This document shows positions 2,948 through 33,874 of a DNA stretch of 33,874 nt, one piece after another. A program made the position numbers and the translations under genes. The stretch is from Dysgonamonadaceae bacterium. Lineage in GTDB: Bacteria; Bacteroidota; Bacteroidia; Bacteroidales; Azobacteroidaceae. The notes below the pieces were generated by a model. The model was given only the letters and a program-made list of their open reading frames with translations. It was not told the origin of the DNA and made no database searches. Every line of letters begins with the position of its first letter. Position 1 is the first letter of the stretch. The stretch lies in NCBI GenBank assembly GCA_031287395.1, contig JAITTA010000287.1, positions 1 to 33,874 on the forward strand, in the 5' to 3' direction.

Positions 2948-4426
2948 TTAGTAATTTGTGTTTTGCGGATCGAAATTGGTCCATCCTTTTGTCCAGTTGT
3001 CTGCATCCGAGTCGCTTTTGAATGCTCCGATGTAATTGACATTTTCAAATCCCGATAGAAGAGGATCTGTAAAGAGTCCTGTTTTACTTGTCAGCGGACT
3101 TCCTGAAGTTGGCCCCCAGTTAGGATTAGCAGCCATACTGTTGGGCTGTTTCAACTTCATATCCGATATGGAAGTGTAGCTTTGATTGTCTAAACCCGAT
3201 GATGTGAAATAGGTGTGAGAGAAAGATTGCTGGCCGGCATTCATTGTTTTTCCTCCATCAATGGAGAGTTGATCCAACCATTTTTTGTTAGCATCACATC
3301 CGGTCAGGGTCATTCCTGCAAAATAAACATTTTTTATTTTCAGGCTGCCGTTGGTTGCCAGGCCTTGGGTGTTTCCTTTCTCGTTATCCAACAGTAAACC
3401 GATGGGATACCCTATGGCTACGGAATTGAAACAACTCAACTGAGAATAGCGGCGAATTTGCATGGCAGCTTGAAAACGGCCTGTTCTTGAATTGTTGTTC
3501 GGTTTCATGTTGCCTGCGTCAACGTATTCGTCCGTATTTTGAAAATCGGAAGCCTGGCCGACCGGACCTACTAAGGTGACGTTACTGAATACGCAGTTGG
3601 TTCTCGGTGTCGCCGTCGATCCGTCGGAGTTGTTGTCGGATTCGAATCCGTTAGAAAGAGACTGATCCCCGATTTTGGGGCTACGAACGCTCAACAGGAA
3701 CTGCATTTTCCCTGAAAATCCGTTATCCGTATCGAAATCGTCGTCCCAGGTATGATAGGAAACCAAATATTTGCAATCGACCGAACCGCCGAACCATTCG
3801 AAAGAATCATCGTTAGAATACGATACCTGCAAATGGTCTATTTTTGTTCCTTTTCCTACGGAACCAAAGGTTATACCGTTGATTTCTTTGTCTGTTTCGT
3901 AAGGAAAACCGGCAAATTCACAACGGACATAGCTCAGCACTCCGGAGTTGTCGTTTGTATCGTTTCCTCCGTGTTTAGTCCTTGGGCCGCCTTCTATCTG
4001 CTGGTTCATCACACCGTTGTTGTTCGGGGCTTTACCACAAATAACAATTCCGCCCCAATCTCCGGGTCTGCGGCTTCCTTTGGGTTGTGCCGATGTGAAG
4101 ACAACCGGTTCGGAAGAGCTTCCCTGTGCGAAAATTTTTCCCCCCGGTTCCACAATCAAGGTAGCGCTGCTTTCTTTTTCTCCCTTGATGATAGTGCCCG
4201 CCGGAATGGTAATGGATGCCCCGTCGACAATATATACCCAGCCTTTCAGCATGTAAGTCCCTTTTTGCAATACAAGGTCTGTCTTGATTTCATAAGCGTT
4301 GCTTCCGTCGCCGATTGTACCTTCTACAAGTGGTTCGGGAGTTGGGTCGTCGTCACTGTTACAACTTGAAAAAACAGCAAGCGCACAAACGGCAAACATG
4401 AGGCTAATCAATTGAAACTTTTTCAT
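2948..4426 (-). CDS. Predicted surface lipoprotein paired with the TonB receptor
   Basis: This is a 492-aa lipoprotein. The N-terminal signal peptide ends in a lipobox at Ser20-Ser21-Cys22, and the mature start Cys-Asn-Ser-Asp-Asp-Asp resembles the acidic surface-lipoprotein export signal known in Bacteroidota, so an outward-facing outer-membrane location is likely. The body is rich in Gly, Asn and short hydrophobic strands such as 'GWVYIVDGASITIPAGTII' (about 62-80), which suggests a beta-helix or other all-beta repeat fold; no catalytic motif is recognisable. It lies 61 bp downstream of the TonB-dependent receptor gene on the same strand, so the two are probably one operon, and the lipoprotein probably helps capture the receptor's ligand. 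The ligand is unknown. Similar receptor-lipoprotein pairs without SusD occur in many Bacteroidota. Confidence 0.7.
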   Translation of the reverse strand: MKKFQLISLMFAVCALAVFSSCNSDDDPTPEPLVEGTIGDGSNAYEIKTDLVLQKGTYMLKGWVYIVDGASITIPAGTIIKGEKESSATLIVEPGGKIFAQGSSSEPVVFTSAQPKGSRRPGDWGGIVICGKAPNNNGVMNQQIEGGPRTKHGGNDTNDNSGVLSYVRCEFAGFPYETDKEINGITFGSVGKGTKIDHLQVSYSNDDSFEWFGGSVDCKYLVSYHTWDDDFDTDNGFSGKMQFLLSVRSPKIGDQSLSNGFESDNNSDGSTATPRTNCVFSNVTLVGPVGQASDFQNTDEYVDAGNMKPNNNSRTGRFQAAMQIRRYSQLSCFNSVAIGYPIGLLLDNEKGNTQGLATNGSLKIKNVYFAGMTLTGCDANKKWLDQLSIDGGKTMNAGQQSFSHTYFTSSGLDNQSYTSISDMKLKQPNSMAANPNWGPTSGSPLTSKTGLFTDPLLSGFENVNYIGAFKSDSDADNWTKGWTNFDPQNTNY

Positions 4427-4487
4427 AATTGAAACTTTTCATAAATTTAACAATAATAAATAATTATTTATAAAATTTCACATTTAA

Positions 4488-7307
4488 TCAGAAATTCAAC
4501 TTGACGGACAATGAAATATTTTGTCCGGGTTTGTATAATTTCGTTATTTGTTCTCTTTTTTGTAAATTTCCCTGTGCATCGTAATATTCAGGGAATTGCT
4601 TAAATACGACGTTCTGTGCCAGTATATCACGGGCGGCAGCCGAAATTTCCCATGTTTTCCCGAATTTTTTATGAACGGACAAATCAAGGACATTACGAGG
4701 CATTTCGTACATGTCGGGAATCACGTTATTGATCGAACTGTTTTCACTGCTGTCGTTTTTCCCGATACCTACAATTCGTTTTCCAATGATATTATACAGA
4801 AAACCGGCCGTGAACCGGCATTTTTCATTTTGATAGAAAAATCCGGCATTCAACAGGTAGGGCGATTGGCCTTGCATGGGGCGGTTGTTTTCGATGCTGC
4901 TTTCCGGAAATTTGACTTTACTTTCGATGACGGAAGCATTCAAGACCAATGAAAAATCTTTCATGCCGGCAAAATCCAGGTTTTTTTTGATATCTATTTC
5001 GGCTCCGAAATTGTTGGCTTGTTCCGCATTCTCAAACGTGTAATTGCGGGCGCCTCCGCCGGTGTAGATGTAAGACCATTCTATCGGATCCTTGAAGTGT
5101 TTGTAAAAGAGCGCCACGGAAATCAGTTCCGAGGGTGAAGGATAGAATTCATACCTCAGATCCGCGTTCTGAATATAAGCTGTTTTCAAATCAGGATTAC
5201 CCATGATGCGGTTGAACAAATCAAAATCGTAGTAAGAGGCCGGGGAAATTTCCCGGAATTCGGGCCGGTTTGCCGACATTCCGTAAGCAACCCTCAACAA
5301 CTTCTTTTTATCGAAATTGTAACTCATATTGATTGAAGGAAAAATATTGGTGCACAGGTAATCCTTTTCTTTTGTCCTTTGTTCCGTTCGTGTAATGTAG
5401 TTGGTAAGTTTCATGTCGTTGTATTCGAAACGAGCTCCGGCATAGATATTCAATTTGCCTGCCGGAATATTCACCGCCAGATAACCGGCGAGTAAAAGAT
5501 TGTTTCCCTTATAATTATCGGCATTATTTGTCGTTTCATCTATTTGCAATTTGTTATATCCGTAATTTTCGGGGATCAGCACGTTTTTGATCACATCTGC
5601 ATAATACAGATTGTATCTATCCTGCAAATCGGTGCCGAACAAGTAATTGAATTGCCTGTTGTTGTATGCCCGGTCACGGAATTCTCCGTATGCTCCGGCT
5701 TTCAGTGTCGGATTGAAGTACCCGGAGTTGAATTCATGCGTGTAATTTACTCCTGCGGCATACATGTACTCATCCATTTTATAGAAATCGCGCATGATAC
5801 CGCCCGCATTGAGCGACATCAGGCCGTTGTAAGGATCCGACTCCACCGACAGGTATTGCTGACGTTTTATGATTCTTCTATCCGGTTGATTTTTATCGGC
5901 ATAGGAAAAACCGAAAGTCCAGTCCAAGTCGTCCTGTCCGGTCAGTGTATGATTTCCGGAGAACTGTCCGTTGTAAGACATCCGGCTGTTGTACAAATAT
6001 TCCGACTGTTCCTGTTTTCCGCTGTTATACTCATATCCGGTACGTTCCGTATAACGATTTTTACCGGATTGATTGAAAATATTTCTAAACTCAAACTTAT
6101 GGTTTTTATCGGATAGAAGGGAGAGGTTCAACAGAACTCCCACTTTGGAATCCGATATGTATTGGTTGTCTAAGTAATCGTTTTCCGCCTCATGTGTATC
6201 CAAAATAACATTATAAATGCCGTATTGGGTGTTTTTCATGCGGTCGTAAATGCGGTTGGAATGTGAATAGCTGAGGGCGGAAATCAGTCCCCATTGTTTA
6301 CCCGATTCCGTATTGAATTTCCGGTTTAAAGTCGCAGAGATCCGTTGGTCGGGTAGAGGCTGTTTGGTGTGTATGGTCCAGTTGTTATTGAATCCTTCTT
6401 TGCTCGTAATATCCGTTTCTGTGGGGTTATTGCCGTTCAACCGTTCCGGAACCACCCTTTTCAAATCCCTGTAACCGTTATCAAAGCCTAAAAAATCCGT
6501 TTGGCTTCCTTTGTTGTACTTGAAATCATGGAATTGGGTTTTCGTATTGAGATTCGTTCCATAACTTAACTGAAAGCTATTTTCGGAAGGCATGTTTTTC
6601 GTTTGTATCTTGATGAATCCTCCTGAAAAATCGGCCGGAAGTTCGGGTGAAGGAGATTTTACAATCACAATATTTTCGATCTGGGAACTGGGAATGATAT
6701 CGAATGAGAATGAGCGGGAATCCGCTTCGGAACTTGGAACGGCACTGTTATTGATCCACACGTTATTGTAACGTTGGGACAGTCCCCTTGCTATTACGAA
6801 TTGATCATCGATGATCGAAATTCCCGGAATCCGTTTGATTACTTCCGATGCGTCTTTATCTTGTGTACGGGTGATTTGTTGGGAAGAAACACCGCTTGTT
6901 ACGGTCAATGCTGTTTTCTGCGCCTGCAACATTGCTATTTCGGTATTGCTTCTGCGTATTCCGGTCACTACCACTTCCGTCAATTGTGTTTCCATTTCCG
7001 TCATGATGATGGCGATGGGAGTTGTCTTGTCTGCAACAACCTCGATGTCTGCTATTTCAATCGGCTCGTAAGAAAGGTAACTCGCTTTCAATGAATACTT
7101 TCCGGGTGATAATCCGTTGATTTTGAATTTGCCGTCAAAATCGGAACTGGTTCCTTTATTCAAAGAAGGAATTGATACAATGGCGCCGATGATTGTCTCT
7201 CCTGTTTTTTTATCTGTTGCAATTCCTTCGATGGTTCCGGTTTGAGCTGCCAGTTTGCTTGTAATTATAAAAAAAATGCCTAATAAAAACTGAATTTTTC
7301 TAACCAT
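4488..7307 (-). CDS. TonB-dependent outer-membrane receptor
   Basis: This is a 939-aa TonB-dependent outer-membrane transporter. A signal peptide occupies residues 1-21 (cleavage after Leu-Ala-Ala). A carboxypeptidase-regulatory-like domain follows (about 24-105, with 'GKFKINGLSPGKYSLKASYL'). Next come a TonB-box-like 'TEVVVTGI' at 110-117, a plug domain (about 135-238, with 'SEVIKRIPGISI' and 'FSGGFIKIQTK'), and a long aromatic-rich beta-barrel. The barrel ends in 'SLSVKLNF', with the terminal Phe typical of the outer-membrane insertion signal. It is not followed by a SusD gene, so it is not a SusC-type glycan importer; the partner is the lipoprotein gene downstream. Import of an iron complex, peptide, phosphate compound or oligosaccharide is possible, and the sequence does not decide. 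Confidence 0.9.
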   Translation of the reverse strand: MVRKIQFLLGIFFIITSKLAAQTGTIEGIATDKKTGETIIGAIVSIPSLNKGTSSDFDGKFKINGLSPGKYSLKASYLSYEPIEIADIEVVADKTTPIAIIMTEMETQLTEVVVTGIRRSNTEIAMLQAQKTALTVTSGVSSQQITRTQDKDASEVIKRIPGISIIDDQFVIARGLSQRYNNVWINNSAVPSSEADSRSFSFDIIPSSQIENIVIVKSPSPELPADFSGGFIKIQTKNMPSENSFQLSYGTNLNTKTQFHDFKYNKGSQTDFLGFDNGYRDLKRVVPERLNGNNPTETDITSKEGFNNNWTIHTKQPLPDQRISATLNRKFNTESGKQWGLISALSYSHSNRIYDRMKNTQYGIYNVILDTHEAENDYLDNQYISDSKVGVLLNLSLLSDKNHKFEFRNIFNQSGKNRYTERTGYEYNSGKQEQSEYLYNSRMSYNGQFSGNHTLTGQDDLDWTFGFSYADKNQPDRRIIKRQQYLSVESDPYNGLMSLNAGGIMRDFYKMDEYMYAAGVNYTHEFNSGYFNPTLKAGAYGEFRDRAYNNRQFNYLFGTDLQDRYNLYYADVIKNVLIPENYGYNKLQIDETTNNADNYKGNNLLLAGYLAVNIPAGKLNIYAGARFEYNDMKLTNYITRTEQRTKEKDYLCTNIFPSINMSYNFDKKKLLRVAYGMSANRPEFREISPASYYDFDLFNRIMGNPDLKTAYIQNADLRYEFYPSPSELISVALFYKHFKDPIEWSYIYTGGGARNYTFENAEQANNFGAEIDIKKNLDFAGMKDFSLVLNASVIESKVKFPESSIENNRPMQGQSPYLLNAGFFYQNEKCRFTAGFLYNIIGKRIVGIGKNDSSENSSINNVIPDMYEMPRNVLDLSVHKKFGKTWEISAAARDILAQNVVFKQFPEYYDAQGNLQKREQITKLYKPGQNISLSVKLNF

Positions 7308-21894: not shown

Positions 21895-21930
21895 GACACT
21901 GATTCCTTTAACTTTTTCTTGTTAATAAAC

Positions 21931-22932
21931 ATGAACGATTTCTTAATACCGTACCATGATTTGTGTTATCATCGCTTGGATGTAAGGATTACAGCCGTGA
22001 AGGACACCATTTTCGATGCGTGGCCGGGAGCAATTATCCGGAATAATCTTTTGTTTGCTTCGGAACAAATACCGGTTGGTGGAGAAATGTCGCTGAGGGA
22101 AAAAATTAACAGGATTCCGTTGTTATCATCTCATCCGTTATACAAAGATTTGGCCGGCGGGTTTCCTCGTGGTTACCAGGTTACATTACAATCTAACCAT
22201 GATATGACTTCTTCCGTCTTTTTAAGGAAAAATGAAATCTTGTGTTTTTCCGTCATCCTGATTGGAGATATGGCTCAATATTTTAACTATTTCATTCGGG
22301 CAATCCGGTTGATGTGTCAGCGAGGTTTCGGATATCCGATGGTTCCGTTTTTGTTGATCGATGTCAATGAAAGGTCTTATTCGGGAGAATGTCAATTATT
22401 GGCAACAGAGCAATCCGGCTTGTCGGACCGGTTACAATACCCTGTACGATTAAGCGACTTTTATCCCAATCAGCCAAAGGGGAATAAAAAATCACTAAAA
22501 ATAATGTTCGAGACTCCGGTCAGCTTATTTAAACAAACCAAGAAAAAAGACACTAAAATCAGTTATCAGGATAAAACCAACGGGTTTCCGAGTTTTTATC
22601 AATTGGTACGCTCGATGGTTTTCAGGTTACAAAAACTGCACACTTTATATGTAGATCCGGATAATTATTTTGATTCGGAAGAACAGATAGAAGATTATTT
22701 GAATCATGCGCGGGAATGTTCGCTGTTGGCGGCTGATATCCGTAAAATAGTCCTGCAAAGCACTCCCAAGAAAGAAACGGAGGATCGGATTCAATTTGGC
22801 GGTTATATAGGAGAATTGTCGTTCGACGGTGATTTTTCGGGTTATATCCCGCTTTTGCGGTTTATGCAGGAATTGGGAGTGGGAGATGGTGTGGTTTATG
22901 GGATGGGGAGGTTTCGAACGAATATAAAGTGA
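21931..22932 (+). CDS. cas6: Cas6 CRISPR RNA endoribonuclease
   Basis: This is a 333-aa Cas6-type endoribonuclease that cuts the CRISPR precursor transcript within repeats to make guide RNAs for the Cmr complex. The C-terminal RAMP domain has the Cas6 pattern 'GGYIGELSFDGDFSGYIPLL' followed by 'GVGDGVVYGMGRF', which is the glycine-rich loop of the family (PF10040). An upstream in-frame TTG at 21919 is possible, but the ATG at 21931 matches neighbouring gene starts. The N-terminal domain is less conserved; a His in 'PYHDLCYH' (residues 7-14) is a possible catalytic candidate, which is not proven. It is the first gene of the operon, 28 bp before the phosphodiesterase gene. Its base composition is less AT-rich than the cmr genes. 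Confidence 0.88.
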   Translation: MNDFLIPYHDLCYHRLDVRITAVKDTIFDAWPGAIIRNNLLFASEQIPVGGEMSLREKINRIPLLSSHPLYKDLAGGFPRGYQVTLQSNHDMTSSVFLRKNEILCFSVILIGDMAQYFNYFIRAIRLMCQRGFGYPMVPFLLIDVNERSYSGECQLLATEQSGLSDRLQYPVRLSDFYPNQPKGNKKSLKIMFETPVSLFKQTKKKDTKISYQDKTNGFPSFYQLVRSMVFRLQKLHTLYVDPDNYFDSEEQIEDYLNHARECSLLAADIRKIVLQSTPKKETEDRIQFGGYIGELSFDGDFSGYIPLLRFMQELGVGDGVVYGMGRFRTNIK

Positions 22933-22960: not shown

Positions 22961-23728
22961 ATGAAACAGTTTATTTTTTTACTGGGAGGATACGACCTGG
23001 AAATGCTTGAAATCAAAAGAATACTGGAGTCAAGAGATGATATTCTCGTCTTTGATGAGCATTTGAGATGGGATAATGCGGATTTATCCATGTATAGTAC
23101 AGTCTTGAAAAAATATGGTAATAATGCGGATGTAATGATCTATGGGATCGAATTATACGAAAAGAATATTTCATCTGTTCCTGAAAATTATCATCGGATT
23201 GATCATCATAATGATTTAAATGATAAAAATTCGGCATTGGAACAAGTCGCTGAAATTCTGAGAATTAAACTTTCAAGGGAACAACAATTAATTGCGGCAA
23301 ACGATAGAGGATATATTCCGGCAATGAAGGCCTTAGGAGCTGATCCCGGCGAAATTGAAGAAATCAGGAAAAAAGATAGGAACATACAAGGTGTCACGGA
23401 AGAGGATGAACAAAAAGCAGAAATGGCCATTAAAAACAAGGTGCTTGAACAGGACATTGTTGTCGTAAAATCGGAAACCAATCGTTTTTCCCCGATTTGT
23501 GACCGGCTATATCCATACGACAAACTACTGGTTTATACCTGTAATGAACTGATGTATTATGGTATTGGAAAGGAAAAATTAGCACAACAATTTGAGAATG
23601 AGATAAAAGAAGGGAAAATGTTTCATGGAGGAGGAGCAGAAGGCTATATCGGTACGGCAAGAGGCGCTTACTCCAACAACGAGATTTTAAACATGAAAAA
23701 CAATATTATTCAACTAATCAATCAATAA
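22961..23728 (+). CDS. nrn: NrN-like DHH-family phosphodiesterase
   Basis: This is a 255-aa cytoplasmic DHH/DHHA1-family phosphodiesterase. The metal-binding motif is 'RIDHHND' (Asp81-His82-His83-Asn84-Asp85), with supporting acidic positions in 'VFDEHLRWDNADL' (30-42) and 'AANDRGYIPAM' (112-122; Asp115). The C-terminal DHHA1-type substrate loop is 'HGGGAEGYIG' (222-231). The classical N-terminal DxD of RecJ/NrnA is not seen in its usual form. In Bacteroides fragilis type III-B loci a protein of this type sits beside CorA and was reported to hydrolyse the SAM-AMP signal made by Cas10. By context this one probably switches off or tunes CorA. The stop is 7 bp before the corA-like gene. Activity on this specific messenger is inferred, not shown. 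Confidence 0.85.
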   Translation: MKQFIFLLGGYDLEMLEIKRILESRDDILVFDEHLRWDNADLSMYSTVLKKYGNNADVMIYGIELYEKNISSVPENYHRIDHHNDLNDKNSALEQVAEILRIKLSREQQLIAANDRGYIPAMKALGADPGEIEEIRKKDRNIQGVTEEDEQKAEMAIKNKVLEQDIVVVKSETNRFSPICDRLYPYDKLLVYTCNELMYYGIGKEKLAQQFENEIKEGKMFHGGGAEGYIGTARGAYSNNEILNMKNNIIQLINQ

Positions 23729-23735
23729 TAGTATT

Positions 23736-25205
23736 ATGTACAGCTATCACATTTTTTATTTTCCGTTTATATGGGAAAATCCCGAAACAAAAGGAAAATT
23801 GTTTTCCGAACAAACTAATTTGTCGGTAATTCCGGTTAATACATATACCAACTGGTTACGCAGTCCTGATATGTCGGATAAGGAAAAGGAAGATTTTTAC
23901 AATGAGCAAAACTTTTATTATAAGTATGTACACCCGGTTTTGTACGATAAAAAAGACAAAGAACCCATTGTCTGCCACTACGAAAGAAAAGAACCGCAGG
24001 AGCATGAAGTAAGTTATATCATTTCGGTAAAAGATGGAAAAACGTATAAACTGAAAGTAGATGCTATGAATCTTAACCTGTATGCTACAGGAGTGGGTAT
24101 GTTGACTTTTTATCTGAAAAACGAAAAGGAAGATCAAAAAGAACCGCAGGATATTTTAAAGATTAATCAATATGGCAGACGAATATTTCCGCCGTTTTTT
24201 GCTGATATTGGCTTTAGAAACGAAACGGCGGTATTCCTGCAAATAGAAGGATTGAATGGCGAACAAAGCAATTTCTGCGAAGATTTTTCTTCATACGGAA
24301 CGCCCAATTCCGACAATCTTTATACGGCATGGAGACCTGCATGTTTTATCAAATATTTGATTGCCGACTTGTCGGAAACAATAGAAATAAAACCCGTGAT
24401 AGATGACAGGATGTTTGTATCTTCCTGGTATAAAAACAATGACTTGACTAAAAAATTCGAGCAGACTGAAGAATCGCTCGATGATTTTTTTAGCAAGGAT
24501 GATTTTTGGTATAAATACCTTTTTGTAGATATTAACGACCCTACCTGTCAAAACGATGCAATGAAAAAAGAACTTGTTGAGAAGCATACTTACAAACGTT
24601 GGCAGAAAGGAGGTTCACTTTATGGAATTTCGCGCTATTCGTTTGTCATGCTTACAAACAATAAGTGTCCCGATTTTCTTTTGCAATACTTCCAAACAAT
24701 GTACGCCCGAATGACAGAACTTGTACTTTTACAACGCGCTTCCCGGCTGCGTTTCTCGGACGAAGTAAACCGTTTGAGCAATCTTTCGAGAAAAAACGTC
24801 CCTGACAAAAAAATGATCGAACAAATCAGTTCTTTGTATAAGGAGTATATACGTTTTATCAATCGTATTTATTTTAAAGATGTTACTGCGCAGGAACAGG
24901 GAATAGAATTATACGACATGTTTTTCAAGACAATGAATGTGAGCGAACACGTAAAAGAATTGGACGAAGAAATAAATGAATTGAATGAGTATGTAAATAT
25001 GCTTGATGATAAAATCCGGAATAAACATGCCAAGGCATTGAACACTATTGCGATTATATTTTTGCCTGCAACATTCGTGTTTAGTTGGTTCGGTATGAAT
25101 GACTATTGGGATATTCCTTTATGGAAAGGATTTCTTATTGGTTTGTCTGCTTCGGCTGTTGGGAGTGTGATATTATTATATTTGATTAATAAATTTAAAA
25201 AATAA
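23736..25205 (+). CDS. corA: CorA-family membrane effector of type III CRISPR
   Basis: This is a 489-aa CorA-superfamily protein with a long cytoplasmic N-terminal part (1-435) and two C-terminal transmembrane helices (about 436-452 and 463-485). The first helix ends in 'FSWFGMNDYW', which holds the CorA signature Gly453-Met454-Asn455. A charged helix (about 405-432, 'ELDEEINELNEYVNMLDDKI') leads into the membrane, as in CorA funnels. The protein is about 170 residues longer than housekeeping CorA and its N-terminal part looks unlike the magnesium-transporter domain. In B. fragilis, CorA beside NrN and Cmr binds SAM-AMP and is needed for immunity, presumably by disturbing the membrane. The same role is expected here. 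Ion selectivity and messenger binding are inferred. Confidence 0.88.
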   Translation: MYSYHIFYFPFIWENPETKGKLFSEQTNLSVIPVNTYTNWLRSPDMSDKEKEDFYNEQNFYYKYVHPVLYDKKDKEPIVCHYERKEPQEHEVSYIISVKDGKTYKLKVDAMNLNLYATGVGMLTFYLKNEKEDQKEPQDILKINQYGRRIFPPFFADIGFRNETAVFLQIEGLNGEQSNFCEDFSSYGTPNSDNLYTAWRPACFIKYLIADLSETIEIKPVIDDRMFVSSWYKNNDLTKKFEQTEESLDDFFSKDDFWYKYLFVDINDPTCQNDAMKKELVEKHTYKRWQKGGSLYGISRYSFVMLTNNKCPDFLLQYFQTMYARMTELVLLQRASRLRFSDEVNRLSNLSRKNVPDKKMIEQISSLYKEYIRFINRIYFKDVTAQEQGIELYDMFFKTMNVSEHVKELDEEINELNEYVNMLDDKIRNKHAKALNTIAIIFLPATFVFSWFGMNDYWDIPLWKGFLIGLSASAVGSVILLYLINKFKK

Positions 25206-25210
25206 ATAAT

Positions 25211-25678
25211 ATGGAAAGGAAAATTGACATTCAGTTATCGCCTTGGGTTTATACAGTATTTTTTGCCCTTATGGTTTGCGCAATTGTTTTCATAGAAAAT
25301 TACTGTCAGAGGGGAGTGCCGTTTTGCAAAATGATTATTGTTGCTGTTTTTATGCTCTCGCTATTTATTGTTTCGGCAGTAGTTTTATACAAATCGTTCA
25401 AAATAAATGTGGAAAACAATGAAAAACAAAAAGAGTTTGAGCGCAAAAAGGAATGGGAAACATTTCAGCACAGTCTTTATAAAGAAGAAAGAGAGGAAAA
25501 ATGGCATTACGATGCAATAAAGGCGCTTATTGAGAAATTAGACGACAAGGAAATTAAAGAGGAGTTTCCATTAAAAAAAGAAGTTGAAACATTAAAAACT
25601 GACTTGGCTGAACTGAAAAAAGAAAAAGATAAAAAATATTTCGTTGAGTTCGTAAATTCCTTAAAATCCAAAAAATAA
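25211..25678 (+). CDS. Small two-helix membrane coiled-coil protein of the CRISPR operon
   Basis: I do not recognise a family. The 155-aa protein has two hydrophobic helices (about 11-29 and 40-61) joined by a short loop with two Cys (32 and 39). A highly charged helical tail of about 90 residues follows (65-155), rich in Glu and Lys with heptad-like spacing ('LKKEVETLKTDLAELKKEKD', 121-140), probably a cytoplasmic coiled coil. The gene starts 5 bp after corA and ends 4 bp before cmr1, so it is inside the operon and very likely co-expressed with both. A scaffold, a CorA partner or a separate membrane effector are all possible. It could also carry a housekeeping role, but its position argues against that. 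Confidence 0.8.
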   Translation: MERKIDIQLSPWVYTVFFALMVCAIVFIENYCQRGVPFCKMIIVAVFMLSLFIVSAVVLYKSFKINVENNEKQKEFERKKEWETFQHSLYKEEREEKWHYDAIKALIEKLDDKEIKEEFPLKKEVETLKTDLAELKKEKDKKYFVEFVNSLKSKK

Positions 25679-25682
25679 TAAT

Positions 25683-26912
25683 ATGAATACATTAACGGTA
25701 ACATTAAAACAGCACACCCCCCTGATTCATTTTCAGCATGATCAGGAGGGCGCAACGCTTCGGGCTTCGGAAGTGAAGCCGAAGTTGGACAGGTTTATAT
25801 TGACGAAACTTGGCAATGGCGATTATGGAAAAGGTAAAACTGAAGCTAAAAAGAGTGGTTTGACAATCGGAGGTCAAGAAACAGCGTTGGATTATAAAAT
25901 GAAATTTATTGTTAATGAAGCACCTGAAATTTTCTACAACAATGAAGTTCAAAAAGACCGGCAGGGAAATGCACAAACCGTTATTCGTAAAGACGGACGG
26001 ATTATTAAGAAACTTAAACCATATCCACTTTTCTTTGCCAATTTGAATACAAACATAGACAATCCTTTGGAATACAAATGTTTCAGTATGCTTCATAAAC
26101 CTTTTGAAATGAAATTGCAAAGTTTTAACAAAGATTTATTGGATCAAATAGAGAAGCAGACCATAAACTTAGGTCAATTCTTTCAATATACAAACTTTGG
26201 CACTCGACAATCAAAGGGATTTGGTTCTTTTTATATTGAGGAAAATGATAAATTGCACGAAGATATTGAGGATTTAAAATACCGATTCAGTGTCGATGTC
26301 AGAAGTGAAAGTAAAAAGTGGCTTGATTTGTTTACTGCAATTGATCTATTTTATAAATCTTTGCGCAGTGGAATTAACATTTGTTGGGGTGATAAATTCT
26401 ATATGAAACCGGCTATTTTTCAATATGCAAAAGATAGAAATTACGATTGGGACAAAAAATTAATAAAGGATTTCTTTTTTAATAATAATTCTCCAAAACA
26501 ACAGAATGATTTTTTATTTAAGGACTTACTTGGATTATCAAGTGAAGAAAGCTGGATGTCATACGGGACAAATATCTCTAAGGAACATTCAACGTCAGAT
26601 ATTAAACGGTTTCAATCTCCAATTATCATCAAACCAATATTGAGAGATGGATATTTTGACGTTTTTGTAGATGCAAACCCAAATGCTAAAGAATTGTTTG
26701 AAAAGTATTGCGGCCAAGTATTTAATATAATACGGTCTAAGAATCCTGAAGAGAAACTTAAATTGAAAACATTTCCCAACTTTGACATTAATGATTTTCT
26801 TGAATTTGCTCTATTGAAAAATGATATTGGCAGATTGACTACGGGTATAAATCACGAAAAATTTTTAGAATTAACAAATATTTATAATGAAATAAAGAAA
26901 GAACATGAATAA
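25683..26912 (+). CDS. cmr1: Cmr1, type III-B RAMP subunit
   Basis: This is a 409-aa RAMP protein of the Cmr effector complex, at the head end near the 3' part of the guide RNA. The start 'LTVTLKQHTPLIHFQHDQ' followed by 'GATLRASEVKPKLDRFI' is typical of the Cmr1 N-terminal RAMP fold. 'FTNFGTRQSKGFGSFYI' style glycine-rich loop sequence lies near 174-188 ('FGTRQSKGFGSFY'), and 'RFQSPIIIKPI' marks the second RAMP domain. Its stop overlaps the cas10 start by 8 bases (ATGAATAA), suggesting coupled translation. It is strongly AT-rich. No catalytic role is expected. Confidence 0.87.
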   Translation: MNTLTVTLKQHTPLIHFQHDQEGATLRASEVKPKLDRFILTKLGNGDYGKGKTEAKKSGLTIGGQETALDYKMKFIVNEAPEIFYNNEVQKDRQGNAQTVIRKDGRIIKKLKPYPLFFANLNTNIDNPLEYKCFSMLHKPFEMKLQSFNKDLLDQIEKQTINLGQFFQYTNFGTRQSKGFGSFYIEENDKLHEDIEDLKYRFSVDVRSESKKWLDLFTAIDLFYKSLRSGINICWGDKFYMKPAIFQYAKDRNYDWDKKLIKDFFFNNNSPKQQNDFLFKDLLGLSSEESWMSYGTNISKEHSTSDIKRFQSPIIIKPILRDGYFDVFVDANPNAKELFEKYCGQVFNIIRSKNPEEKLKLKTFPNFDINDFLEFALLKNDIGRLTTGINHEKFLELTNIYNEIKKEHE

Positions 26913-28437
26913 GTATTTTGCTATCACAATTGGGCCGGTCATCAGGACATTATCCATGGCTAGAAAACCTCGTGAGCTATGGTCGGCGAGCTATATGTTT
27001 TCAAAATTGATGGAAAAATTAAGAGCCGAAATTCCGGAAGACGCAATCATATCTCCGGCAACAAGAGGAAACAAGGATATTGGCGACGTAGGGCTTTATC
27101 CTGATCGGATATATTTTAAAAATCCTGGAAATGGCTGGGATATAAACAAAGTAATTGACTGTGTAAAAGTAAATTATGCTGATGAAATTGTAATTTGTGC
27201 CGATTATTTTAGAATTTATGCTGTTGAGATTGAAGCGGACGGTGATGAGGATATTATTAAAAAATTGAATGAACGTTTGGATTGTTTGGAATTATGCAAT
27301 ATAGCTCTTCCTCAAGATACAGAAAATTCTGTATTTAATTCCATTATTGGGAATAAAATATGGACAAAATATCACAAATCCGGAAAACAGATTGAGACGT
27401 TAGCCGAAATTGCCTCTGCGCAATTAGAGCAAATAGATGAGAATGGCTATAAAAAATGTTTGAGTCAAAATAAGGGACAAGACAACGAGGATAAACTTAT
27501 AAAAGAACTCAAAAATAAATTTCCTGAGAAATTCATAACGCCTCATAAGTATATTTGTATTGTACATGCCGACGGAGATAATATAGGTACAATTGCAGGA
27601 TCCGTTACAATTGAAGAATTGAAGACTTTATCCCAACGATTACTGAAATTTGGAGACAAGGCATGCGAATCTATCAAACAATACCAAGGTTTCCCTATTT
27701 ATGCGGGTGGAGACGATTTGCTTTTCATTGCTCCTGTTGTTTCCGGAAAAGAAGAAACCAGGACAATTTTTGATTTGATAAAGCAAATTGATGATGATTT
27801 TAAAGAGACGAAAGTTTCGGAAATAACCGGAAAGGATAATAAAGGAAATACATTAGTTCCTGCCATGTCATATGGAATCTCAATTACCTATTATAAATAT
27901 CCTTTATATGAGTCCTTGGAAATGTCAAGAAATCTTTTATTTGGCATCTCCAAAGAACTAAAGAAAAAGGATGAAAAGGGAAAAGATACAGATGAAAAAT
28001 TGAAAAATGCAATTGCATGGACACTACAGAGAGGAAGTGGTGCCACAGTAACTGGAGTTTTTTCTAAAGGTTCTGAAAATTCTAAAGATTCTGAAAAGTT
28101 ATATGAGGCATATCAATCTCTGATAAAAAGTATTAACGTGAAGACTGATAAAAATTTAGTTTCGGCTGTCGCTCACAAAATTAAGAACAATGAAGAATTG
28201 CTGGGTTTATTTATGGGGACAGCTAATCAAGATGAACGGTTAGTTGCCTTTTTTAAAAATTATCTTGAATATGAAACAAAAAAAGCAGATGAAAAAATAT
28301 ATCTGGATGCCGTAAAAGGATTATTTAAAGTATTACAATCGACAACAAATAATATCAAAGAAACAACAAAAATAATTTATGCGATGCTTCGTACGGCAAA
28401 ATTTATAAAAGGTTTGGAGGACGATAAAGATGAATAG
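26905..28437 (+). CDS. cas10: Cas10 (Cmr2), HD-less signalling subunit
   Basis: This is the 510-aa large subunit of the Cmr complex. When target RNA is bound it converts nucleotides to a second messenger. The palm domain carries 'HADGDNIG' (221-228) and the intact cyclase motif 'YAGGDD' (266-271, GGDD at 268-271). No N-terminal HD nuclease domain is present: the protein starts directly with the palm-like region ('YFAITIGPVIRTLSMARKPR') and is much shorter than HD-containing Cas10 proteins. So single-strand DNA cutting is not expected and immunity must rely on signalling and RNA cutting by Cmr4. With the CorA and NrN neighbours, the product is probably SAM-AMP as in B. fragilis, though cyclic oligoadenylate cannot be excluded from sequence. 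The gene overlaps cmr1 and cmr3 by 8 bases each. Confidence 0.92.
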   Translation: MNKYFAITIGPVIRTLSMARKPRELWSASYMFSKLMEKLRAEIPEDAIISPATRGNKDIGDVGLYPDRIYFKNPGNGWDINKVIDCVKVNYADEIVICADYFRIYAVEIEADGDEDIIKKLNERLDCLELCNIALPQDTENSVFNSIIGNKIWTKYHKSGKQIETLAEIASAQLEQIDENGYKKCLSQNKGQDNEDKLIKELKNKFPEKFITPHKYICIVHADGDNIGTIAGSVTIEELKTLSQRLLKFGDKACESIKQYQGFPIYAGGDDLLFIAPVVSGKEETRTIFDLIKQIDDDFKETKVSEITGKDNKGNTLVPAMSYGISITYYKYPLYESLEMSRNLLFGISKELKKKDEKGKDTDEKLKNAIAWTLQRGSGATVTGVFSKGSENSKDSEKLYEAYQSLIKSINVKTDKNLVSAVAHKIKNNEELLGLFMGTANQDERLVAFFKNYLEYETKKADEKIYLDAVKGLFKVLQSTTNNIKETTKIIYAMLRTAKFIKGLEDDKDE

Positions 28438-29605
28438 ATATTTAATAACATTGACCCCGATAGATAAATTCTTTTTCGGGGGCGAGGCTACTTTCACAAG
28501 AGGGAAGAATAGCGACAATAAAGATTTAAAAAAATTTGACGAATTATATAGTAGTTATGTGGTAAAGTCCAATTTATTACCGCAGCAAACATCTTTACTT
28601 GGTATGTTGAGATTCTTGCTTTTGTCGAATAACAAAGATTTATTTGTGGATAATAAAATTAACGCAGAGAAGAAAAACGATGTTATCGAGTTGATCGGTC
28701 CAACAAGTTTCAATGTTGATGAAAATAATTTTAGCGAAATGAAATTTGGTAAAATTAAATTTGTTTTTCCTTGTTTTATTCAACGTAAAAAAGAAGGGGA
28801 CACCGAATGGGAAAATTTGATTTATGCACCGTTAGATTATTCTTTGAGAAAAGTTTCTTTTGAAAAAGGGAAGTCTTTATTAGATAAAGAAAATAATTTA
28901 ACTCCTATAATTGAGGGTTATGACGCAAAAAAAGGGTTACCGTCTCAATATATCGGATGTAAAACAAAATGGATAGACGAATCCTGCCTATTTAAAAAAG
29001 ATGTGAGAATAGGAATAGACCGGGATATTAAAGGAAAAACAAAAGAAGGGGCTTATTATAAACAAATTTTTTACCGTTTCTCGGATAAATATCCAATCTC
29101 AAAAGAAGAATGTAAATCACATTGCCTGAGATTTGCATTTTATGCAGATTTGGATTATGATATATCTTCAGATCAAAAATTCATTGTTTCGTTAGGCGGC
29201 GACAATTCACAATTTATACTTCAGGCGGAGAAAACAACAGATAATTCTGAAATTCAATTGCCTGAAGCATACTGTAATACAACAAATTTTGATAATTGTT
29301 ATGCTAAAATTGTTCTGATTTCAGATGCTCTTATCAAAAAAGAAACTGTCAATGAATCAATTTTCGGGATAAATGATACCATTATTTTTCGTTTTCTCAC
29401 TTCTGATCTGGATACCGAAAATTACTATAAATTTTCAGGAAATAAGCATTTGAAAAGAAATGAAAAGAAATACAATCTTTATAAGCGTGGTTCTGTTTTT
29501 TATTTCAAAGGTGAAGAAGATGTGAAACATTTTGAAACTGCATTAAAAGAAAACAAACGTTTTCGTCAAATAGGATATAATTATTATCAAACAATTAAAA
29601 AATAA
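28430..29605 (+). CDS. cmr3: Cmr3, type III-B RAMP subunit
   Basis: This is a 391-aa RAMP protein that, with Cas10, caps the 5' end of the guide RNA in the Cmr complex. The N-terminus 'LITLTPIDKFFFGGEATF' and 'LLPQQTSLLGMLRFLLLSN' (about 46-64) match the Cmr3 pattern, where an exposed loop follows the first strand and a P-x-x-[ST]-LLG-x-LR segment replaces the usual RAMP 'GSSLKG'. The C-terminus 'FRQIGYNYYQTIKK' contains a weak version of the closing glycine-rich loop. The start codon overlaps the end of cas10 in ATGAATAG, and cmr4 starts 5 bp after its stop. Confidence 0.85.
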   Translation: MNRYLITLTPIDKFFFGGEATFTRGKNSDNKDLKKFDELYSSYVVKSNLLPQQTSLLGMLRFLLLSNNKDLFVDNKINAEKKNDVIELIGPTSFNVDENNFSEMKFGKIKFVFPCFIQRKKEGDTEWENLIYAPLDYSLRKVSFEKGKSLLDKENNLTPIIEGYDAKKGLPSQYIGCKTKWIDESCLFKKDVRIGIDRDIKGKTKEGAYYKQIFYRFSDKYPISKEECKSHCLRFAFYADLDYDISSDQKFIVSLGGDNSQFILQAEKTTDNSEIQLPEAYCNTTNFDNCYAKIVLISDALIKKETVNESIFGINDTIIFRFLTSDLDTENYYKFSGNKHLKRNEKKYNLYKRGSVFYFKGEEDVKHFETALKENKRFRQIGYNYYQTIKK

Positions 29606-29610
29606 AAATC

Positions 29611-30393
29611 ATGGAAAATAAAGTATGGTTAATAACCACAAAAACAAATTTGCATGTAGGGAATGAAAATACATCAAATTACGGCTTGATTGATAAATCT
29701 GTTCAACGCGATGTTCTTACCGGATTGCCTTGTATTAATGGCAGTTCCTTGAAAGGCGCGTTAAATGAGTTTTTTGCCGTAAAGAAAACCGGGAAAATAA
29801 ATTTAGTAAAAGTATTTGGAGCCGATAAAATGGACAATAGCAAAGATAAAGAAACGAGAAAAGGCGAATATTCCTTTTTGGACGCACAATTATTGTCTAT
29901 TCCGGTACAGAGCAATAACCGCTTGTTCTATCGGGCAACTTCGCCGGGTATATTGAAAAAATTTGTTGAGCAACTGAATTTATTTGGAATAAAATATGAC
30001 GCCTTCAACTTGGGTTTTGACCTTTCCTCTCCAATCGTTTTTACGGAAGATGGGACAAAGTTAGGTGATTTCGATGCAAAAAAAGAAATTGTAAACGATA
30101 CGGTAAAAAGAATTGAAGAATTGATAGGTAAAGACATTGCCATTTTTAATGATGAATACTTTAAAGAATTATGTGGCGATGATAATTTACCTATAATCGC
30201 TCGGAATAAATTAGATAATGGTAAAAGCGAAAACCTTTGGTACGAACAGGCGCTTCCTCAAGAAACTATTTTCTACTCGTTGTTTTTGTCGCTTGAAAAT
30301 GATATTACAAAAGAAATATTGAGTGGAGAAATCGTTCAGATAGGAGCCAATGCAACTATCGGATTCGGATATTGCCAATTCAAACAATTATAA
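29611..30393 (+). CDS. cmr4: Cmr4, backbone and target-RNA-cutting subunit
   Basis: This is a 260-aa Cas7-type RAMP protein that forms the filament backbone of the Cmr complex and cuts the target RNA at 6-base intervals. The N-terminal 'TNLHVGNENTSNYGLIDKSV' carries Asp28 at the place of the catalytic Asp known in characterised Cmr4 proteins, so RNA cutting is probably retained. 'TGLPCINGSSLKGALNEFF' (37-55) is the RAMP signature, and 'IGANATIGFGYCQF' is the closing glycine-rich loop. It lies 10 bp before the cmr5 start. Confidence 0.92.
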   Translation: MENKVWLITTKTNLHVGNENTSNYGLIDKSVQRDVLTGLPCINGSSLKGALNEFFAVKKTGKINLVKVFGADKMDNSKDKETRKGEYSFLDAQLLSIPVQSNNRLFYRATSPGILKKFVEQLNLFGIKYDAFNLGFDLSSPIVFTEDGTKLGDFDAKKEIVNDTVKRIEELIGKDIAIFNDEYFKELCGDDNLPIIARNKLDNGKSENLWYEQALPQETIFYSLFLSLENDITKEILSGEIVQIGANATIGFGYCQFKQL

Positions 30394-30403
30394 TTTTACA
30401 GCC

Positions 30404-30790
30404 ATGAGTAAAAAAAGAAATAACGAATTGCTGAAAAAAGCGGAAGAAGCTTTGAGAAAGACGGAATATGTCGATATTCTTAACAACGAAACCATCAAGG
30501 ATTCATATAAAGGTCAAACCGCAGCTTTGGGTGTGACTATTGCCATGAGTGGATTAAGACCTGCTTTGGCAATATACCAGAAGAAAACGGATGAATGTGA
30601 TAAATTGCAGATTTTAAATGCCATTGCCGTAATGATGGGTATAAATCAAATAGATGCAGGAAAAAAACTATTTAGTGATGTGATGAAATGTGATGATGTA
30701 AATCAATTGAATAATTATAAAAGGAATATTATTGACTGTTCCATCGCATTGAAACAGATAATTCAAACTTATAAATTAGTTAAACTATGA
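30404..30790 (+). CDS. cmr5: Cmr5, small subunit
   Basis: This is a 128-aa all-helical small subunit that forms the inner filament of the Cmr complex and contacts target RNA. The start chosen is the ATG at 30404 ('MSKKRNNELLKKAEEAL'); an upstream ATG at 30350 in the same frame lies inside cmr4 and would add 18 unlikely residues. The central 'YKGQTAALGVTIAMSGLRPA' followed by 'LAIYQKK' is the diagnostic Cmr5 segment. The stop overlaps the cmr6 start by four bases (ATGA). Confidence 0.92.
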   Translation: MSKKRNNELLKKAEEALRKTEYVDILNNETIKDSYKGQTAALGVTIAMSGLRPALAIYQKKTDECDKLQILNAIAVMMGINQIDAGKKLFSDVMKCDDVNQLNNYKRNIIDCSIALKQIIQTYKLVKL

Positions 30791-31575
30791 AAAATATCAG
30801 TTGGTTGTTTTACAAAGAATATTTTCAGGAAATTGATTTTTCCGGTATCAAGGATATAAATAAAGACATCAAAAATAAGGAACTTATTAAGTCGAGGAAT
30901 TTAAAAATTACGAATGCGGAATTATGTAAAATCGATAATCCTGTTGCAAATCAACGAGTACAGATGCAAATTGAATATCCTGGATTGGCAACAGGGATAG
31001 GAATTAATCATGAAGCATCTGTTGAGGGAGAATTTAAACTGGGTATGCACTTCGATTATACTTATGGTATGCCCGTAATTCATGGTTCTTCCGTCAAAGG
31101 ATTGTTACGTAATGCTTTCCCTGAAAATGAGATAAAAGAGAAAGAAAGGGAAACGGAAGCCGAAAAAGAAAATAGAATCCGGAAAAATAGAATCCGGATT
31201 TGTAAAATAGACCAAATCAGAGAATATCTTGAAAAAGTATCTGAGGATTTGGATATTGATAAATTACGGGATGAAATTTTTGAAAGCGTTGGTTCTATCT
31301 ACAATCGTGACATTTTTTACGACGCTGTAATTGTGAAATCAAACAAGAAAAATAAAATTTTGGCTTCGGATTCTATCACTCCTCATAAGAATCCATTACA
31401 AGAGCCTAATCCGATTACATTCCTGAAGATTGCCTCCGGTGTTACTATAGAATTTCGATTCGATTTGAAAGATGGTATTATTTCTGCAGAAGAGAAATGT
31501 AATATTTTCAAACGTATTCTGTTGGATTATGGCGTCGGAGCTAAAACAAACGTTGGATACGGACAACTAACTTAG
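30787..31575 (+). CDS. cmr6: Cmr6, type III-B RAMP subunit
   Basis: This is a 262-aa Cas7-like RAMP protein at the 3'-guide end of the complex, between Cmr4 and Cmr1. It has 'GMHFDYTYGMPVIHGSSVKG' (86-105) followed by 'LLRNAF', the Cmr6 RAMP signature, and the C-terminal 'DYGVGAKTNVGYGQL', which is its glycine-rich loop. A charged insertion (about 112-135, rich in Glu, Lys and Arg) separates the two halves. It is the last canonical cmr gene, followed after 15 bp by the DUF2971 gene on the same strand. Confidence 0.93.
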   Translation: MKNISWLFYKEYFQEIDFSGIKDINKDIKNKELIKSRNLKITNAELCKIDNPVANQRVQMQIEYPGLATGIGINHEASVEGEFKLGMHFDYTYGMPVIHGSSVKGLLRNAFPENEIKEKERETEAEKENRIRKNRIRICKIDQIREYLEKVSEDLDIDKLRDEIFESVGSIYNRDIFYDAVIVKSNKKNKILASDSITPHKNPLQEPNPITFLKIASGVTIEFRFDLKDGIISAEEKCNIFKRILLDYGVGAKTNVGYGQLT

Positions 31576-31590
31576 TGAATAGTAGCTGTT

Positions 31591-32994
31591 ATGGATACAT
31601 TGATGAATGAATTATCATATAAAGTTGATATGTTGATCTCAGAACAAAGAGCCTCGAAAAATCGGAGTCGTGTAAAAAATGAAAAAACGAAAAATACAGA
31701 GGATATCCAAAAAGTATTATCCATCTGTGATCAGATAATTAATTTAGATTGTAAAGACAAGCTTTCGGAAAAATATGCAAGGTTCATCAGAGCTGTTTGT
31801 TATTCTGAAAAAGAAAAGTGGTATGATGCATTTAAGGATTTGAAAGATTTGGGTTATGAGGATTATTGGATATACAAACAAAAACGTAAATATACAGGGC
31901 TTTATGACGAGATGATTTCTTGTAACCTTAAAGATTGTGACATAGAAGAAAACAGTGATATATTTCATACTTATCTTTCTAATTGCCATAAGATTTATGA
32001 TTGTATTTTTAAAATTATGGATTTCTTAATTGTAGAAGATGAAAATTTGCGAATAAGCCATTACACAACAAAGAAAACTGTTGAAAAATTATTATTTGAC
32101 AATAGTCCGCTCCGGATGTGTTCAATGGCAACTGCAAATGATCCAAGTGAAGGAAGAGTAATTTATGAATTTTTGGAACATCCTGAATGGTATGATGCAG
32201 TAATTGGAAAAAATAAACTTCAATGTTTTGTTACCTGTTTTACTTTCGATTCAAATTGTCTGAATCATTTTCGTCTTTATGGGAAAGAGAATGAGAAAGA
32301 AGCTACGGGCGTAAGTTTAGGTTTCGAGGCTGAAGCATTTGACTGTTTAATATCAGATCAATTAAAATTTGAAGAAAAGACCCTTTTTTTTGAAAAATAC
32401 AAAAAAGCACATTTGTTCAGATGTCTTTATATTTATCCTGTAACGAAAGATATAATATCTATTGGGCATACAGAATATGAAGAAATAAAAGAAGATTGGG
32501 AGGTTCTAACAAAAGATAAAATGTGTACAATGTTTGAGAAAGAAAAGAAGATAGTATCAGAAGAGAATATGAAGGAAATAAGAACGAAGATGAATGAAAT
32601 GCAAAAAAATATTAATAACTTTATTAATATAGAAGAAAACAAAATTAATATAGAAGAAAATAAAATTATTATAGATGAAAACAAAGCGAAAAGAATAGAA
32701 ATTGTTTCCAAAATGTTGCTGAATTTGAGTTATATTGTTAAACATGCAGCTTTTAAAGAAGAACAGGAGAGTAGATTGTTTTATATTGTAAAACTTAACA
32801 GTACAAAAAGCTATATTAAATTTTGTGATAATTCTCGGAAAATGTATGTGGAGTACGATTTACCAATGGAAAAACTCAAAAAAATTACTTTTGCTCCAAA
32901 AACGACTGAATATTTGCTATTGAAAGACAGGTTAGAATTATTTGATGGTTTTGAAACGGTAGAATGCGTTCAAAGTAAATTACCTATTGCATAA
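31591..32994 (+). CDS. DUF2971-family protein linked to the cmr operon
   Basis: This is a 467-aa protein. Residues 155-450 resemble the uncharacterised DUF2971 family: 'RISHYTTKKTVEKLL' (154-168), 'TANDPSEGRVIYEFL' (181-195), 'CFVTCFTFDSNCLNHFRLYG' (212-231), 'GVSLGFEAEAF' (240-250) and 'FKEEQESRLFYI' (388-399). The order of HY, NDP-E, WxxYG-like, GV-GF and ExExR-like motifs is the family hallmark. The first 150 residues are helical and look TPR-like. A family insertion (about 315-370) is coiled coil and holds a 7-residue repeat. No signal peptide or membrane helix is seen. It is 15 bp after cmr6 and shares the AT-rich composition, so it is probably co-transcribed. Its job is unknown: candidate CRISPR-linked effector, regulator or a separate defence gene. 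Confidence 0.7.
   Translation: MDTLMNELSYKVDMLISEQRASKNRSRVKNEKTKNTEDIQKVLSICDQIINLDCKDKLSEKYARFIRAVCYSEKEKWYDAFKDLKDLGYEDYWIYKQKRKYTGLYDEMISCNLKDCDIEENSDIFHTYLSNCHKIYDCIFKIMDFLIVEDENLRISHYTTKKTVEKLLFDNSPLRMCSMATANDPSEGRVIYEFLEHPEWYDAVIGKNKLQCFVTCFTFDSNCLNHFRLYGKENEKEATGVSLGFEAEAFDCLISDQLKFEEKTLFFEKYKKAHLFRCLYIYPVTKDIISIGHTEYEEIKEDWEVLTKDKMCTMFEKEKKIVSEENMKEIRTKMNEMQKNINNFINIEENKINIEENKIIIDENKAKRIEIVSKMLLNLSYIVKHAAFKEEQESRLFYIVKLNSTKSYIKFCDNSRKMYVEYDLPMEKLKKITFAPKTTEYLLLKDRLELFDGFETVECVQSKLPIA
32626..32688 (+). repeat. Three tandem 21-bp coding repeats in the DUF2971 gene
   Basis: Units at 32626-32646 and 32647-32667 differ by one base and both encode NIEENKI; a third, more diverged unit at 32668-32688 encodes IIDENKA. 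Because 21 bp is 7 codons, each unit adds one heptad to a predicted coiled coil (residues 346-366), so copy number could change the length of this segment without breaking the frame. Confidence 0.85.
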
Positions 32995-33017: not shown

Positions 33018-33874
33018 ATGCTCACCCCTCTCTTCCGCACTCTCTGTCTTCCCGTCACGCTCCACAGCGCCTGGAAGCTCGTCAAATCGAAAAACTCCGC
33101 CGGAGGAATCGACGGACTTTCCATTGTGCAGTTTGAGGAGAATCTGGCGGAAAACCTGGCGGATTTGCGGCAGGAATTAATTCATAAAACCTGGAATCCC
33201 GAACCGTACCTGCGGGTGGAAATTCCAAAAAAAGAAACGGAAATCCGCCGGTTAGGCTTGTTAAGCATCCGGGATAAAATCGTGCAGCAGGCAATCAAAA
33301 CGCTGATTGAACCGAAGATGGAGAAACTGTTCCTGAATAACAGTTACGGTTATCGTCCCGGAAAAGGGCCTGCAAGAGCGATTCGCCGGGTGATGTATAT
33401 CTATAATCAGGTGAAGCGGGGTTGGGTAGCTAAGCTGGATATCGATGATTATTTCGATACCATCAAGCAGGAACAACTGTTTATCAGCCTGCAAAACTTG
33501 TTGAAAGACGAGGAAATCGTGCGGCTGATTGAGCTTTGCCTGAAAACGGGAGTGGTTACGAAGCAATTGAAATGGAGCGAAACCGGCAAAGGCCTGCCGC
33601 AGGGAGCGGTTTTGTCCCCGTTGCTGGCTAATTTTTATTTGCATCCTTTCGATCAATTTGTGGTAAACAAAATCCCAAACTATGTCCGTTACGCCGATGA
33701 TTTCTTGGTAATTTCGGGCAATAGAGAGGAATTGGAGACAACTGTCCGGGATATTGAAGCTATATTGGAGAGCAAATTTTCATTGAAGCTGAACACCCCC
33801 GTCATTACCGACCTGGAAACGGGAACGGAGTTTTTAGGGATATGGATCAAGCGGTCGGGGTTAACATTGACCGA
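33018..33874 (+). CDS. Reverse transcriptase, 5' part (probable RT-Cas1 fusion)
   Basis: The frame opens at ATG 33018 and is still open at the window end, giving 285 residues. Reverse-transcriptase blocks appear in order: 'GGIDG' (29-33), 'YGYRPGKGPARAI' (110-122), block A 'KLDIDDYFDTI' (139-149) with Asp141, 'GKGLPQGAVLSPLLANFYL' (190-208), block C 'YVRYADDFLVI' (222-232) with the catalytic YADD, and 'EFLGIWIK' (271-278). It is of the group II intron-like type. Only 23 bp separate it from the previous stop, so there is no room for the intron RNA of a mobile group II intron. Next to a complete Cmr operon, the most likely identity is the RT half of an RT-Cas1 protein that acquires spacers from RNA. 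Cas1 itself is beyond the window. Base composition is much richer in GC than the cmr genes. Confidence 0.8.
   Translation, partial: MLTPLFRTLCLPVTLHSAWKLVKSKNSAGGIDGLSIVQFEENLAENLADLRQELIHKTWNPEPYLRVEIPKKETEIRRLGLLSIRDKIVQQAIKTLIEPKMEKLFLNNSYGYRPGKGPARAIRRVMYIYNQVKRGWVAKLDIDDYFDTIKQEQLFISLQNLLKDEEIVRLIELCLKTGVVTKQLKWSETGKGLPQGAVLSPLLANFYLHPFDQFVVNKIPNYVRYADDFLVISGNREELETTVRDIEAILESKFSLKLNTPVITDLETGTEFLGIWIKRSGLTLT

Follow-up and report, generated by a model that had tools for sequence, protein, structure and literature searches.

Organization of the locus

The analysed stretch of DNA, in the following called the window, is a whole contig (G000:C130) of 33,874 bp and stems from an assembly of 332 contigs that is 75% complete. 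It carries an operon in which cas6 is followed by nrN, corA, an open reading frame (ORF) for a protein of 155 aa, the genes cmr1 to cmr6 and a gene for a protein of 467 aa, before a reverse transcriptase (RT) frame runs into the end of the contig. The following features were assigned.

21919..22932, plus strand: cas6 (Pfam PF10040, E 3.8e-10; PADLOC Cas6, E 1.1e-28)
22961..23728, plus strand: NrN, SAM-AMP phosphodiesterase of the DHH family (PADLOC DHH_CorA, E 8.6e-79; NrN of PDB 9lq9, E 4.3e-67; DHH at aa 81, GGG at aa 223)
23736..25205, plus strand: CorA, CRISPR-associated membrane effector (PADLOC CorA, E 5.3e-125; Pfam CorA, E 2e-8; GMN at aa 453)
25211..25678, plus strand: membrane protein of 155 aa, hydrophobic towards the N-terminus and charged in its tail, no family found
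25683..26912, plus strand: cmr1 (PADLOC Cmr1, E 7.7e-81)
26905..28437, plus strand: cas10/cmr2 (Pfam PF22335, E 2.5e-25; Cas10 of PDB 9lq5, E 6.2e-36)
28430..29605, plus strand: cmr3 (Pfam PF09700, E 3.1e-22)
29611..30393, plus strand: cmr4 (NCBIfam TIGR02580, E 4.5e-42)
30350..30790, plus strand: cmr5 (Pfam PF09701, E 1.8e-5)
30787..31575, plus strand: cmr6 (NCBIfam TIGR01898, E 2.3e-33)
31591..32994, plus strand: protein of 467 aa with weak similarity to DUF2971 in its C-terminal part (Pfam DUF2971, E 0.98)
33018..33874, plus strand: RT domain, N-terminal part of a predicted RT-Cas1 fusion, cut by the contig end (RVT_1, PADLOC Cas1_IIIb, relatives and tree)

The cas10/cmr2 product is just 510 aa long, and a motif scan identified the GGDD cyclase motif at aa 268 but no HD dipeptide. 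Judged from these sequence features, the operon is a SAM-AMP (CorA/NrN) type III-B system, because NrN, CorA and a GGDD-containing Cas10 without HD occur together, and its Cas10 would be expected to produce SAM-AMP. An earlier reading of the sequence alone had placed the RT beside a Cmr operon and had not pointed out the CorA/NrN signalling genes in it. The complete set Cmr1-6 does exist (25683-31575), however, the immediate neighbourhood does not, because the 467-aa gene, which is not a cas gene, separates cmr6 from the RT. No CRISPR array was detected in the window.

Two genes of the operon were less expected. A small ORF directly 3' of corA, encoding 78-196 aa whose N-terminal part is hydrophobic and whose tail is charged, was found in 9 of 11 CorA type III-B loci of Bacteroidales (the window, L112, L113, L114, L115, L116, L118, L119 and L121); in L116 it is split into two frames. 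The next gene is cmr1, except in G431, where cas6 follows. The copy in the window did not match any family at E 1e-3 in Pfam, NCBIfam, PADLOC or PHROGs. The small membrane protein encoded at this position may act together with the CorA channel.

The 467-aa gene is tightly packed, with 15 bp to cmr6 and 23 bp to the RT. Distant relatives of its product occur in four other Bacteroidales genomes, all of them outside cas loci; in some cases TPR repeats lie within or next to the relative. The fold predicted from a five-row alignment was poor (pLDDT 36), and our literature search revealed no paper that links DUF2971 with CRISPR. Its close packing at the junction of the effector and the adaptation genes makes an accessory gene the most likely reading, and a passenger gene is the alternative. 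It is possible, albeit rather doubtful, that the locus harbours two parts of SAM-AMP immunity that have not been described before, namely the membrane protein 3' of corA and a recruited DUF2971-like protein.

The reverse transcriptase frame at the contig end

ORF analysis of the window revealed that the RT frame opens at the ATG at 33018 on the plus strand and stays free of stop codons up to the last base at 33874, which corresponds to 285 aa. The Pfam profile RVT_1 is covered over its full length (positions 1-204 of 205, E 5.7e-31), and the catalytic motifs identified by the motif scan are intact, comprising the Asp in DIDDYFD (aa 141; DID at 141-143) and YADD (aa 225-228). Hence, the previous statement that the RT motifs including YADD are complete holds for the fingers and the palm, while the thumb and all later residues fall past the contig end, so that only the N-terminal part can be read. 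On the basis of these motifs the protein is predicted to possess RT activity. The best-scoring profile was PADLOC Cas1_IIIb with E 1.3e-100, and the RT corresponds to the N-terminal part of that model. PADLOC matches to DRT and retron RTs were discarded, because their scores were far below that of Cas1_IIIb.

Cas1 was not found elsewhere in the 75%-complete assembly, and no Cas2 scored above the cut-off; given that a quarter of the genome is missing, both absences are uninformative. A weak second Cas1 match on contig C251 contained eight internal stops and was rejected as noise. The 22 terminal bases of the contig do not occur again in the assembly, hence, the break cannot be walked; a stretch of 32 bases near the contig end was also absent from the viral contigs. 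Contigs that stop just 3' of RT-cas1 have been described for Bacteroides fragilis, too, where nearby transposases were held responsible (PMC5704556).

Relatives and phylogeny of the RT

The search across the order covered 393 genomes. At the cut-off for close relatives (E <= 1e-55), all six non-self genomes contained open frames of 763-777 aa, in which RVT_1 is followed by Cas_Cas1 in one frame. Single-sequence scans of the genome contigs and viral contigs gave no match, probably because a single divergent sequence yielded overly specific query patterns; relatives among the genome contigs were recovered by searching with an alignment instead. These included fused proteins in L018 (Bacteroidia), L020 (Bacteroides heparinolyticus), L021, L023 and L024 with 55, 53, 46, 44 and 39% identity, respectively. 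Taking the order-wide and genome-contig searches together, all close and undisturbed relatives (39-55% identity), mostly from Bacteroidota, are RT-Cas1 fusions of 760-787 aa. Among the disturbed ones, the frame of L019 runs into a contig edge just where Cas1 begins, and the frames of L025 and L046 break inside the RT with Cas1 still present downstream. In a contig from a Nitrospira MAG (L022, 7988-9284) the RT continues in frame into the C-terminal portion of Cas2 and Cas1 is missing, which reflects either a deletion or an assembly error.

Where the contigs of relatives run on, cas2 is the next gene after RT-Cas1, and CRISPR arrays with a spacing of about 70 nt are located near RT-Cas1 genes. 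In L018 the RT-Cas1 gene follows cmr6 in the same direction after about 20 bp. Another CorA/NrN RT-Cas1 locus (L014) contains a gene on the minus strand between cmr6 and cas6 (4307-5179), whose product appears by eye similar to the receiver domain of response regulators. The spacers from the arrays of two relatives (L018 and L011) were compared with phage records without any match and hence give no evidence on whether spacers originate from RNA or DNA; this agrees with the known difficulty of tracing RT-linked spacers (PMC5513706).

Phylogenetic analyses were done with a first tree of 81 rows and a careful tree of 38 rows. In both, the window RT falls in a clade of nine rows, with an SH-aLRT support of 98 in the larger tree and a support of 100/99 in the smaller one, and all other members of this clade are RT-Cas1 proteins or the contig-cut L019. 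The smaller tree has a single branch (100/96) that parts all fusions from the stand-alone, intron-type RTs, among them the RTs of this type from the host's own family. When the window RT was constrained to the stand-alone side, the log-likelihood dropped by 51 units, and the AU test rejects this placement (p 0.00034). The phylogeny therefore places the RT within the Bacteroidota RT-Cas1 clade, and together with the Cas1_IIIb match and the fused relatives it lends strong support to the suggestion of the sequence-only reading that an RT of the RT-Cas1 type is present. The branch of the window RT is rather long (0.52), and no relative found exceeds 55% identity. Fusions from Campylobacterota form the branch next to the Bacteroidota RT-Cas1 proteins. 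This arrangement resembles the published RT-CRISPR clades, in which clade 2B comprises Bacteroidetes including B. fragilis, while the adjoining clade 2A contains Epsilonproteobacteria (PMC6013744). The window RT appears to match clade 2B; this label derives from the host phylum and from the B. heparinolyticus and Prevotella members of a tree built without published clade 2B sequences.

Composition and variability of the adaptation genes

The GC content at third codon positions (GC3) is 0.59 in the RT gene, 0.44 in cas6, 0.25-0.33 in the cmr genes and 0.24 in the 467-aa gene, so that GC3 rises sharply, from 0.24 to 0.59, where the 467-aa gene gives way to the RT (32994/33018). Differences in GC3 among relatives are mostly smaller than in the window. 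The adaptation genes also vary between genomes. Ten other genomes of the order bear CorA, and four of these (G151, G156, G254 and G431) also have RT-Cas1. In the one-contig genome G336 (L123, G336:C1:2805000-2824900) CorA-Cmr-cas6 is accompanied by a few decayed repeats, and an RT of this clade was not found; it is possible that this genome has lost adaptation. The presence of a CorA-Cmr locus is therefore not sufficient to predict RT-Cas1. Yet another arrangement exists in a CorA type III-B locus of G095 (L125, 12747-14805), where cmr6 is followed by a separate RT-like gene of 351 aa and a stand-alone Cas1 of 336 aa; the RT-like protein is weakly related, its identity to an RT-Cas1 being 23% across some 200 residues. 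The different composition, the relatives without RT-Cas1 and the one with separate RT and Cas1 collectively suggest that operons of this type can exchange their adaptation and effector modules.

Interpretation of the contig end

The most plausible explanation for 33018-33874, to which we assign a probability of roughly 0.9, is that it represents the RT part of an RT-Cas1 of the Bacteroidota lineage (clade 2B), with the thumb, the linker, Cas1, cas2 and the array just past the contig end. The presence of Cas1, cas2 and an array in this genome is extrapolated from the organization in the relatives. The fusion as such lies outside the window, hence, the RT could also be a stand-alone protein with cas1 as a neighbouring gene of its own. 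Some type III loci are arranged in this way, and L125 provides an example after cmr6 in a CorA type III-B locus. For the window we regard this as improbable, since the RT-like protein of L125 is only distantly related and all undisturbed members of the clade to which the window RT belongs are fused. Equally improbable is a descendant of RT-Cas1 in which Cas1 is broken or lost, so that the locus no longer adapts. Such decay might be exemplified by L022 without Cas1, by the frame breaks in the RT of L025 and L046, and by G336, which lacks the module and has decayed repeats, however, the RT part in the window is conserved and shows no damage at all, and the majority of the relatives are intact as well.

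Two further explanations are much less probable. The NCBIfam model TIGR04416 (group_II_RT_mat) matched the RT with E 3e-74, which could point to a group II intron maturase inserted by chance beside the operon, but the match stays under the cut-off (250 vs 300 bits) and is expected for CRISPR RTs, too. Moreover, the RT starts only 23 bp after the stop of the upstream ORF at 32994, and this ORF is complete up to the C-terminus common to its relatives. Therefore, no room is left for the domains I-III of a group II intron 5' of the RT, in line with what had been concluded from the sequence before. No intron RNA from Rfam was detected in the window, where the region of domains V/VI would fall past the contig end, and the intron-type RTs of the host family are only 33% identical to the window RT and lie on the opposite side of the tree, as described above. 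It is similarly hard to believe that the contig is chimeric, with an RT-Cas1 fragment of another genome joined to the operon by the assembler. The GC3 step and the frame ending at the contig edge would fit such an artefact, but the position after cmr6 and the same direction correspond to the RT-Cas1 of L018, and the RT belongs to the lineage that is found with CorA/NrN Cmr loci, which a random join is unlikely to produce.

Comparison with known systems and possible function

The preferred reading, an RT-Cas1 cut by the contig end, makes the locus similar to the type III-B Cmr-CorA-NrN system of B. fragilis, which has been shown to make SAM-AMP (PMC10600005). Both share cmr1-6, cas6, CorA, NrN and a cyclase Cas10 without HD (PMC5704556, PMC10600005). 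Adaptation in B. fragilis uses an RT-Cas1 fusion, a protein of 756 aa (PMC5704556) that belongs to clade 2B (PMC6013744), whereas its counterpart in the window is known from the RT part alone. The window RT likewise groups among Bacteroidota RT-Cas1 proteins with Campylobacterota fusions adjoining, as in clade 2A (PMC6013744). Unlike in B. fragilis, cmr6 and RT-Cas1 are separated in the window by the 467-aa DUF2971-like gene, and a gene for the NYN nuclease of the B. fragilis system was not identified in its operon. Hence, the combination of RT-Cas1 with CorA/SAM-AMP type III-B is already documented in B. fragilis, and the window is a new example.

By its predicted components, the locus could work as follows. 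As in the RT-Cas1 of Marinomonas mediterranea (PMC11014452), the fusion together with Cas2 would insert short pieces of foreign DNA or RNA into the array and complete them by reverse transcription, and RT activity would let RNA fragments serve as spacers. The crRNA would be processed by Cas6, and transcripts matching it would be recognized by Cmr1-6 with the HD-less Cas10. SAM-AMP made by Cas10 would then open the membrane effector CorA, while NrN would degrade the signal. For the RT-Cas1 of Marinomonas mediterranea biochemical data exist, whereas the RT in the window is known here from its sequence. The M. mediterranea RT presumably belongs to a different CRISPR-RT lineage. It is encoded beside a type III-B system and described as able to take up RNA (PMC11014452). 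In the literature consulted, we found no published test of RNA capture for the clade of the window RT. By analogy with the relatives and the M. mediterranea protein, capture of spacers from RNA by the locus is likely.

Collectively, our data extend the occurrence of CorA/SAM-AMP type III-B systems with RT-Cas1 to another lineage of Bacteroidales. If the proposed reading is true, a memory derived from RNA would be tied to a membrane signalling that is triggered by RNA, which makes this operon type useful to test.
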